Shown: piece after piece, positions 20,637-26,077 of the stretch | Layout of the letters: every line of letters starts with the position of its first letter | Position numbering within the stretch: the stretch's first letter is position 1 | Source: Allostella vacuolata | GTDB taxonomy: Bacteria; Pseudomonadota; Alphaproteobacteria; ATCC43930; Allostellaceae | Reading direction: 5' to 3' | Assembly: GCA_006739055.1 (NCBI GenBank) | Contig: AP019702.1 | Location: forward strand, 4,861,388 to 4,925,387 | DNA: 64,000 bases | The notes under the pieces: model-generated | Databases searched by the model: none | The model's input: only the letters and a program-made list of their open reading frames with translations | Told to the model about the DNA's origin: nothing | Translations under genes and position numbers: made by a program

Positions 20637-20665
20637 ATGGAAGCACGGCGCTGCCCATCGGTCGT

Positions 20666-20766
20666 AGCGTCCCTCGACTGCGCTCGGGATGAGGCATCTC
20701 TCCATTGGCGGAAGCGCTTGTGGAACAAAGGAGGTTTCCTCATCCCGAGCGCAGTCGAGGGACGCT
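20666..20766. repeat. REP-like 29-bp perfect inverted repeat
   Basis: Left arm 20666-20694 (AGCGTCCCTCGACTGCGCTC + GGGATGAGG) is exactly complementary to the right arm 20738-20766, around a 43-base spacer. Versions of this sequence, reading as rev-comp of CCTCATCC-GAGCG-AGTCGA-GGAC, are scattered in several alphaproteobacterial genomes as intergenic repeats. It fills the gap between an SDR and uvrB and could form a long hairpin that ends or stabilises transcripts. Confidence 0.85.
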
Positions 20767-20875
20767 TTGGCCGTCGGCCAACGCTCCCCCGGTGGGAACT
20801 GATCCCCGACACGCCGGGCCGGCACATTTCATCCCCGCCTAGCCATCGCCGGGGTGCCGCCGCATATAGTACCCC

Positions 20876-23002: not shown

Positions 23003-23775
23003 TGCCGGGCATGGAGCCGATCCCGCGGGTGGCCCTGGTCACCGGCGGGGCGCGACGCATCGGCCGGGCGCTGGCGCTCGACCTCGCCGCCCAGGGCTGG
23101 GCCGTGGCGGTCCATCACCATGCCTCGGCGGACGAGGCGCGAGCGCTGGTGGAGGCGATCCGGGCCGACGGCGGCGGGGCGGTGGCGCTGGCCGCCGACC
23201 TGTCCCGGGAGGACGAGGTCGAGACCCTGCTGGCGCGGGCCGCCGACGCGCTGGGGCCGGTCGGCTGTCTCGTCAACAATGCCTCCCTCTTCGAGCGCGA
23301 CGAGGCCCTGACGGCCACCCGGGCGTCCTGGGACGCCCATATGGAGACCAACCTGCGCGCGCCCTTCCGGCTGACCCAGCAGCTGGCCGCGGCGCTGCCC
23401 GACGGCGCCGCGGGCGCGGTCATCAACCTGCTCGACGAACGGGTCTGGAGCCTGACGCCGCACTTCGTCTCCTACACCGTCAGCAAGAGCGCGCTGTGGA
23501 CCCTGACGCGGACGCTGGCGCTGGCACTGGCGCCGCGCATCCGGGTCAACGGCATCGGCCCGGGGCCGACCCTGCCCAGCCCGCGCCAGTCGCGCGCGCA
23601 GTTCGAGCGGCAGTGCGCCAGCGTGCCGCTCGGCCGCGGCACCACTCCGGCGGAGATCTGTGCCGCGGCCCGGTTCATCCTGGCCGCGCCCTCGATGACC
23701 GGCCAGATGATCGCGCTCGACGGCGGCCAGCACCTGCAATGGTCCCCCGCCGGCCGCGCCGAGATCGATGAATGA
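23002..23775 (+). CDS. SDR oxidoreductase (FolM/pteridine-reductase-like)
   Basis: 257-residue SDR with the motif ALVTGGARRIGRALALDLA (the R-R of this glycine motif is typical of the dihydromonapterin/pteridine reductase group), NNASLFERD, NLLDERVWSLTPHFVSYTVSK (Tyr, Lys catalytic pair) and a C-terminal TGQMIALDGGQHLQW. Such enzymes reduce dihydropteridines or dihydrofolate. It starts within the uvrB stop (TGATG), indicating translational coupling. Catalytic activity is inferred only. Confidence 0.82.
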   Translation: MPGMEPIPRVALVTGGARRIGRALALDLAAQGWAVAVHHHASADEARALVEAIRADGGGAVALAADLSREDEVETLLARAADALGPVGCLVNNASLFERDEALTATRASWDAHMETNLRAPFRLTQQLAAALPDGAAGAVINLLDERVWSLTPHFVSYTVSKSALWTLTRTLALALAPRIRVNGIGPGPTLPSPRQSRAQFERQCASVPLGRGTTPAEICAAARFILAAPSMTGQMIALDGGQHLQWSPAGRAEIDE

Positions 23776-23846
23776 CGGCCGCCTGTCCGCCGTATCTCCA
23801 ACAAAACCGCTACTTCGTCCTGCAACATGGCGGAACCGTTGGGGTT

Positions 23847-24068
23847 TTGTGCACAGCCCCCGGAAATCCGCGGGGCCGCGGGCGAGTCAAGTACTCTTTG
23901 GGGCCGATTGTCGCCGCCCCTCCGGTTGTGCGATTGGCCCAGTTTTATTCATTCAGGAAAATCAATAACTTAGAATTTTTGCACAGAAATTGTGCAGGGC
24001 GCCCGAAGGTATCGGAGAATCAGGGGTCGGTACCACTCGCCAAGCGATTCCCCACATGCTTATCCACA
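23847..24068. promoter_or_regulatory. cluster of DnaA-box-like sites and A+T-rich DNA
   Basis: In a gap of about 350 bases without a gene. One perfect DnaA box TTATCCACA is at 24060-24068. One-mismatch copies in the same orientation are TTGTGCACA (23847-23855) and TTTTGCACA (23977-23985), and a two-mismatch copy TTCCCCACA is at 24048-24056. The stretch 23942-23994 is only about a quarter G+C in a ~70% genome. Three GANTC methylation sites (23884, 24017, 24046) and a palindrome TGCACA-N5-TGTGCA (23980-23996) lie here. It may be a replication origin or a cell-cycle-regulated promoter. Confidence 0.5.
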
Positions 24069-24127
24069 GGTTCGGTGGAAAAGGGAACTATGTGCGCTGA
24101 CGGCCGGGTTTGCGCGGTGGAGCGGCC

Positions 24128-26077
24128 ATGAGCGGCGACAGCGACGAGCTCCTGCAGGTTGAGGAGCCCCCCGCCGGATCGCCGCCGGGGCGGATCGCGA
24201 GCGGGGCGGAGGTGATCCGCGGCGCGCTCAGGACCATGCCGCTCGGGCCCGGCGTCTACCGCATGCTCGATGCCAAGGGCGACGTCCTCTATGTCGGCAA
24301 GGCGCGAAGCCTGAAGCGGCGGGTCGTGTCCTACACCCATGTCGACCAGCTCTCGACCCGGCTGCGCCGGATGGTCGCCGACACGGTCACGGTCGAGATC
24401 GTCACGACCCACACCGAGGTCGAGGCGCTGCTGCTCGAAAGCAACCTCATCAAGCGCCTGCGGCCGCGCTACAACGTGCTGCTGCGGGACGACAAGTCGT
24501 TCCCGGACATCCTGCTGACCGGCGACCATCCCTTCCCGCAGATCACCAAGCATCGCGGCAGCCGCAACCGGCCCGGACGCTATTTCGGGCCCTTCGCGTC
24601 GGCCGGCTCGGTCAACCGGACCATCGTCGCCCTGCAGCGCGCGTTCCTGGTGCGCAACTGCGCCGACACCGTCTTCGCCCAGCGCACCCGGCCGTGCCTG
24701 CAGCACCAGATCAAGCGCTGCACCGCGCCCTGCGTCGGCCGGGTGACGGCGGCCGACTACGCGGCCCAGGTGGCCGACGCCGAGGCCTTCCTGTCCGGGC
24801 GCAGCCGGGCGGTCCAGGCAGCCCTGGTCGAGCGGATGCAGGCGGCGAGCGAGGCGCTGGACTTCGAGAGTGCCGCCCTCTACCGCGACCGCATCCGCGC
24901 CCTCACCCAGATCCAGGCGCACCAGGACATCAACGTCGCCGGCCTGGACGACGCCGACGTGATCGCCGCCCACCAGGCCGGCGGCCACACCTGCATCCAG
25001 GTGTTCTTCTTCCGCGGCGGCCAGAACCTCGGCAACCATCCCTATTTCCCGAGCCACGACCGGCAGCTGCCGGTCGAGGAGGTGCTGGCCGCCTTCGTCG
25101 GGCAGTTCTACGACAACAAGATGCCGCCGCCCCTGATCCTGCTGAGCCACGCCCTGGCCGAGCAGGACCTGCTGGCCGAGGCCCTGGCGATCCGCGCCGA
25201 GCGCAAGGTGGAGCTGGTGGCCCCGCAGCGCGGCGACCGCCGCAAGCTGGTCGACCACGCCCTGACCAATGCCCGCGAGGCCCATGGCCGGCGCCTGGCC
25301 GAAAGCGCCACCCAGCGCCAGCTGCTGGAGGGGGTGGCCCGGGTCTTCGGCCTGCCCGCGACGCCGGAGCGCATCGAGATCTACGACAACAGCCACATCC
25401 AGGGCACCCATGCGGTGGGCGCCATGGTGGTCGCCGGCGCCGAGGGCTTCGTCAAGGGCGCCTACCGCAAGTTCACGATCCGCGCCCCGGGCGCGGCCGG
25501 CGACGACTTCGCGATGATGCGCGAGGTCTTCACCCGGCGCTTTGCCCGGGCGCTGGAGGAGCGGGGGGCGGAGCTCGACGCCGCCGACCCGGACGGCCAG
25601 GGCGGCGAGCGCGCCAGGGTCGCCTGGCCCGACCTGGTGCTGATCGACGGCGGGGCCGGGCAGCTGAGCGCGGCCCAGGCCGTCCTGGCCGACCTCGGGG
25701 TCAGCGACGTGCCGCTGGTGGCGATCGCCAAGGGGCCCGATCGCGACGCCGGGCGCGAGCGGTTCTTCACCGCCGACCGGCCGCCGATCAGCCTGGAACC
25801 GCGCGACCCGGTCCTGTACTTTCTCCAGCGGCTGCGCGACGAGGCCCACCGCTTCGCCATCGGCACCCACCGGGCGAAGCGGACCAAGGCCCTGGGCCAG
25901 TCGCCGCTCGACGAGGTTCCGGGCATCGGTCCGCGGCGCAAGCGGGCGTTGCTGCACCATTTCGGTTCCGCCCGGGCGGTTGCGCGGGCGGGCTTGGCCG
26001 ATCTCGAGGCGGTGGCGGGGATCAACAAAACCGTCGCAAAGATGATATACGATTTTTTCCACGGAAACGGCCCCTGA
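24128..26077 (+). CDS. uvrC: excinuclease ABC subunit C
   Basis: 649-residue nuclease that makes both incisions in nucleotide excision repair. The GIY-YIG domain is at the N-terminus ([20 protein letters not shown]). Next come a cysteine cluster ([17 protein letters not shown]), a UVR domain ([19 protein letters not shown]), the RNase-H-like endonuclease ([19 protein letters not shown], with DGGAGQLS), and C-terminal helix-hairpin-helix motifs ([33 protein letters not shown]). ATG 24128 is preferred to the upstream TTG. It begins a co-directional run of genes to 31.2 kb. Confidence 0.97.

Follow-up and report, generated by a model that had tools for sequence, protein, structure and literature searches.

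The gap upstream of uvrC in Allostella vacuolata probably holds an alphaproteobacterial DARS-like site, resembling DARS2 of E. coli in that IHF would act together with a second protein. Judged from the sequence, the element is DARS-like in every feature of its core and DARS2-like by its predicted IHF site, and its second site differs in position and in probable binder. It lies within a 64-kb stretch (here, the window; nt 4861388–4925387 of the 5,834,761-base single-contig chromosome, whose record opens with dnaA), between a short-chain dehydrogenase gene and uvrC. This gap (from 23775 to 24128) holds every motif listed in a preliminary description of the DNA, which had proposed an origin or a promoter controlled by DnaA and CcrM. 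The features are as follows, in window positions, with offsets counted from box II.

23011–23775, + strand: short-chain dehydrogenase gene, stopping just before the gap
23847–23855, + strand: distal DnaA-box-like site TTGTGCACA, weak, beyond the IHF site on the far side from the core
23884–23888: GANTC (GAGTC)
23941–23993: 53-bp stretch of lowest G+C in the whole window (24.5%), containing the IHF site and the palindrome
23960–23972, + strand: match AATCAATAACTTA to the IHF-binding consensus WATCAANNNNTTR (9/9), 100 bp from box II (-100)
23980–23996: 17-bp palindrome TGCACAGAAATTGTGCA (TGCACA-N5-TGTGCA), centred at -71
24017–24021: GANTC (GAATC), within a zone of modest GANTC enrichment in relatives
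24046–24050: GANTC (GATTC), overlapping the start of box III
24048–24056, + strand: DnaA box III, TTCCCCACA (7/9), with a 3-bp spacer to box II
24060–24068, + strand: DnaA box II, perfect TTATCCACA
24074–24082, - strand: DnaA box I, TTTTCCACC (7/9), head-to-head with box II across a 5-bp spacer
24128–26077, + strand: uvrC (GIY-YIG, UvrC RNase H and HHH domains), adjoining the element throughout the class

The perfect TTATCCACA and the three near matches already reported (TTGTGCACA at 23847, TTTTGCACA at 23977 and TTCCCCACA at 24048) were all located, all on the + strand, and so were the three GANTC sites, the palindrome and the A+T-rich stretch of about 53 bases, in a window of ≈71% G+C (≈70% in the preliminary description). 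The statement that all boxes share one orientation was wrong, the inverted TTTTCCACC lying on the minus strand 5 bp from the perfect box. This missed box is the most informative feature of the site, and the functional element extends to 24082, beyond the end originally given (24068). The near match at 23977 overlaps the palindrome and probably belongs to it, and the distal site corresponds in Azospirillum to TTTTACACA or TTGTACACA, with a spacing that differs among species.

Other elements were observed in the same region. A short frame of 13 codons (24090–24131) has a good Shine-Dalgarno sequence and a TGA that overlaps the uvrC start codon; it is also present, with a different peptide, in one relative (G001) and absent from another (G003), and translational coupling to uvrC is possible. 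The sequence TTGACTC, considered as a common -35 box, was dropped: Azospirillum has it, whereas in the window it lies at another place and on the opposite strand. At 20664–20768 lies a REP-like intergenic inverted repeat occurring genome-wide, formed by GCGTCCCTCGACTGCGCTCGGGATGA and its complement ≈50–70 bp apart, and observed also in loci L017, L018, L020, L028, L030, L038, L050, L163 and L164.

Taken singly, the DnaA boxes are unremarkable, as the window holds 50 boxes with up to two mismatches against 33.7 ± 5.4 expected. The perfect 9-mer occurs in five copies in the 5.83-Mb genome, and the core geometry is absent at the other four, one of which (5201756) sits in a head-to-tail cluster. 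Read on the minus strand from 24082 to 24048, the uvrC core is TTTTCCACC-GAACC-TGTGGATAA-GCA-TGTGGGGAA, namely a 9-5-9-3-9 arrangement in which boxes II and III are opposed by box I. In E. coli MG1655 the core of DARS1, in the bioD-uvrB gap, reads TTATCCACT-ATTCC-TGTGGATAA-CCA-TGTGTATTA, and DARS2 at mutH likewise has the 9-5-9-3-9 layout. DARS cores are defined by three boxes, equally spaced in DARS1 and DARS2, with box I opposing the other two (PMC5742627), and the head-to-head I/II pair is characteristic of DARS and essential (PMC10380432). At 24048–24082 the three boxes have the DARS1/DARS2 spacing, I and II are head-to-head and III is parallel to II.

When the three boxes were scored together, the uvrC core reached 23 out of 27 (DARS1 scores 24, DARS2 20), the top value of 3.16 million positions scanned in its own genome, with a runner-up of 21. 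A profile built from sequence alone for the 131-bp element, searched against genomes, gave 67.5 bits at uvrC, while the second-best place of the same genome scored 10.5 bits; together with the core score, this difference indicates that the arrangement, unlike the single boxes, is not due to chance. One match was found in each of the four genomes of the genus (61–67 bits), two of which (G002 and G003) were outside the profile training. The next-best place (G000:C1:5201724-5201764, L054:1724-1764) holds the boxes TTATCCACA, TTATCCGCA and TTATCCCCA head-to-tail, in a gap adjoining an ACT-domain-like reading frame.

Relatives of UvrC were collected; 61 of their loci have a perfect box no more than 900 bp upstream of uvrC, and in these the match to the DnaA box was averaged at every offset. 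Only two offsets stand out, and they are the positions of DARS boxes III and I: -12 on the strand of the perfect box (6.3/9 on average, z 7.0) and +14 on the other one (5.3/9, z 5.8), the latter being the sole strong opposite-strand peak. The strict core pattern TCCAC-N6-TGTGGATAA was present in 101 of 289 genomes of the class, versus one for the reversed pattern used as control. Restricting the count to the 150 genomes with a listed uvrC position, 79 strict-core matches were found: 65, in as many genomes, lie 34–923 bp upstream of uvrC and without exception occupy the opposite strand, and 14 fall elsewhere. The strict core is absent near uvrC from about half of the alphaproteobacterial genomes. 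The DnaA-bound regulatory element predicted in the preliminary description is well supported by the conservation. In some Acetobacteraceae boxes II and III are kept and box I is lost. Loci of the Reyranella type (L092, L118, L119, L123, L129, L132, L135, L139 and L141) show one perfect DnaA box ≈240–350 bp upstream of uvrC in another conserved context, CTTATCCACAnATCGAAGCGCGGCAGACGAT, and lack boxes I and III.

The adjacency to uvrC in 65 genomes could also be explained by a uvrC promoter regulated by DnaA and IHF, with cell-cycle repression or activation and no nucleotide exchange. In Caulobacter DnaA serves as a transcription factor (PMC3193534), and in E. coli it represses uvrB when bound to the DARS1 boxes (PMC6015884). 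The tight linkage counts against a DARS in so far as selection could have acted on the control of transcription. However, the distance between core and uvrC varies ≈25-fold (34–923 bp) whereas the internal spacings hold to 1–2 bp, which is odd for a simple operator and favours a self-contained nucleoprotein machine. Moreover, the same architecture is found at unrelated genes in beta- and gammaproteobacteria, and the head-to-head geometry is the hallmark of DARS. We therefore consider promoter control alone rather unlikely. The preferred DARS-like site would nonetheless probably give DnaA control of uvrC as well, because it lies in the uvrC promoter region, as DARS1 does at uvrB.

Across the phylum, the element profile found matches in 233 of 299 genomes at E ≤ 0.01; the E-values are rough, and ordinary clusters of boxes may account for the weak matches. 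Strong full-length matches outside the class, with gene names read from translations, were located at hemE/priA (twice), at an exbB-like gene/xseA, and at serB-like and uvrD-like genes, mostly with the palindrome kept at -78/-79. Such matches at other genes indicate that the architecture predates the class, the link to uvrC being characteristic of the class. Core and palindrome were observed together in the non-alphaproteobacterial loci L225, L234, L240, L241, L242 and L245, sometimes in several copies per genome.

The flanking sites were examined in 71 non-redundant loci picked solely by box II and part of box I, neither the IHF site nor the palindrome being used for selection. At least 8/9 matches to the IHF consensus WATCAANNNNTTR were present at -97 to -101 in 52 of the 70 aligned loci, and the perfect consensus, at any position within the upstream 200 bp, occurred in 26 of 71 loci, compared with 1.5% of shuffles. 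The palindrome, as TGC-N11-GCA and usually as TGCCYAWWWWWTRGGCA, was found at -78 to -80 in 55/70 loci (0.2% of shuffles), and the Fis 15-mer GnnYAnnnnnTRnnC (consensus from PMC8682772) at -84 to -58 in 57/70 (0.9% of shuffles); nt 23981–23995 of the window, GCACAGAAATTGTGC, fit the latter exactly. Control by CcrM, suggested from the GANTC sites, finds weak backing in the same loci: GANTC is modestly enriched at -52 to -30 (26/71 loci vs 4.8 in shuffles), but it is not universal.

These sites relate the element to DARS2, which in E. coli requires both IHF and Fis and in which the distance of the IHF site matters (PMC4245941). DARS2 has an IHF-like site at -109, on the side of box III, where the uvrC element has its own at -100, and the distal DnaA box is in both oriented as boxes II and III. 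On the other hand, the palindrome is not present at -79 in DARS2, the Fis-type 15-mer falls here between the IHF site and the core whereas in DARS2 the Fis sites FBS2-3 lie beyond the IHF site, and the element is ≈240 bp long, against 455 bp for DARS2, and precedes another gene. The genome has four HU/IHF-family genes, and a stand-alone Fis-type (HTH_8) protein was not found in it, the HTH_8 matches falling all within large open frames. The position of the Fis-type site and the lack of a stand-alone Fis thus make the element DARS2-like, but not a DARS2.

With DARS1, located in the bioD-uvrB intergenic region at uvrB promoter 3, the element shares the 9-5-9-3-9 spacing, the opposition of box I to II and III, the perfect box II and the location upstream of a UvrABC excision-repair gene (uvrB there, uvrC here). 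It differs in having the IHF site and the Fis-type palindrome, neither of which DARS1 is known to need, and in a core that points the opposite way relative to the gene. This orientation counts against a DARS, as do the only 7/9 matches of boxes I and III in the window, the lack of a stand-alone Fis, the missing palindrome in E. coli DARS2 and the many genomes of the class without the strict core at uvrC.

A resemblance to E. coli datA was also considered, since datA is likewise intergenic and not an origin, combines DnaA boxes with IHF and requires boxes around an IHF site (PMC5835720). The boxes on both sides of the IHF site upstream of uvrC would suit an element that promotes ATP hydrolysis, or simply titrates DnaA. 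Yet E. coli datA, with its boxes 2, 7 and 3 around one IHF site, differs in spacing and orientation, has no 9-5-9-3-9 head-to-head core at its boxes and affects DnaA in the way opposite to that predicted here, and the uvrC element has a single perfect box and lies 0.73 Mb from oriC; a datA-like role is improbable.

Still less credible is the view that the uvrC leader contains an RNA element and that the palindromes are hairpins of its transcript. Two inverted repeats do occur at fixed places, and the 17-bp palindrome varies in sequence with both arms changing together. Nevertheless, the mismatches of box I in the window disrupt the hairpin pairing, the core boxes fit a protein-binding consensus common to the E. 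coli DARS, the IHF consensus is conserved too and no Rfam match was obtained, the search near the site returning only chance microRNA matches below the gathering score.

As to the replication origin proposed in the preliminary description, the gap does present an A+T-rich stretch, DnaA boxes, an IHF site and GANTC. The sampled cumulative GC skew, however, has its minimum near 5.6 Mb (5.57–5.61 Mb in a finer walk) and its maximum near 3.1 Mb, where the KOPS-like GGGNAGGG also switches strand. In the searched intervals (5.50–5.83 and 0–0.12 Mb) a single cluster of DnaA boxes with up to one mismatch was detected, at 5613546–5613780, between ppsR (PF03618) and hemE (5613926), with parB at 5629930. 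This is the Caulobacter-type hemE origin of the chromosome; it has DnaA boxes in common with the uvrC element but is not matched by the element model. Skew minimum, hemE, parB and box cluster thus coincide ≈0.73 Mb from the uvrC gap, uvrC itself (4.885 Mb) being ≈728 kb from the hemE origin, and a similar separation (≈0.34–1.1 Mb) is seen in those relatives in which uvrC and hemE share a contig. On these grounds a chromosomal origin at the uvrC gap was rejected, its chance of being correct being negligible. The distance is in line with DARS, which are remote from the origin.

What the analysis establishes is the sequence, the geometry, the position, the class-wide conservation and the distance from oriC; binding by DnaA and IHF, the release of ADP and the effects on initiation and on uvrC are inferred. 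DnaA would bind boxes I, II and III, the head-to-head I/II pair joining two ADP-DnaA molecules via their AAA+ domains and box III strengthening the complex. IHF, predicted to bind 100 bp away, would bend the DNA so as to bring the core complex under the action of a second protein, bound to the Fis-type palindrome, and perhaps also of DnaA bound to the distal box. ADP would then be released, and the apo-DnaA would leave and rebind ATP, so that initiation-competent DnaA is regained. More tentatively, and with considerable doubt, Alphaproteobacteria may have inherited an IHF-dependent DnaA-reactivating element fixed to uvrC, whose second activator would be a non-Fis protein with a Fis-type (HTH_8) domain, for example a regulator of the NtrC or RegA family, or some other factor.

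The conservation of DARS has been described for gamma- and some betaproteobacteria, and a review refers to DARS-like sequences in many proteobacteria (PMC10380432). A search of the open-access literature, subscription papers being outside its scope, retrieved no report of DARS in Alphaproteobacteria or at uvrC. In Caulobacter the hydrolysis of DnaA-bound ATP was inferred to be essential, in a study of DnaA regulation that does not mention DARS or reactivation (PMC3193534). The association of DnaA control with UvrABC genes, uvrB in E. coli and uvrC here, suggests that this coupling is old or has arisen more than once. If the second activator were indeed an HTH_8 regulator, the recharging of DnaA, and hence the timing of replication, would be tied to excision repair as well as to nitrogen or redox state. 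Being single-copy, with the geometry of a DARS and with IHF and Fis-type sites at fixed places, and present in much of the class, the locus makes DnaA recharging in Alphaproteobacteria directly testable.
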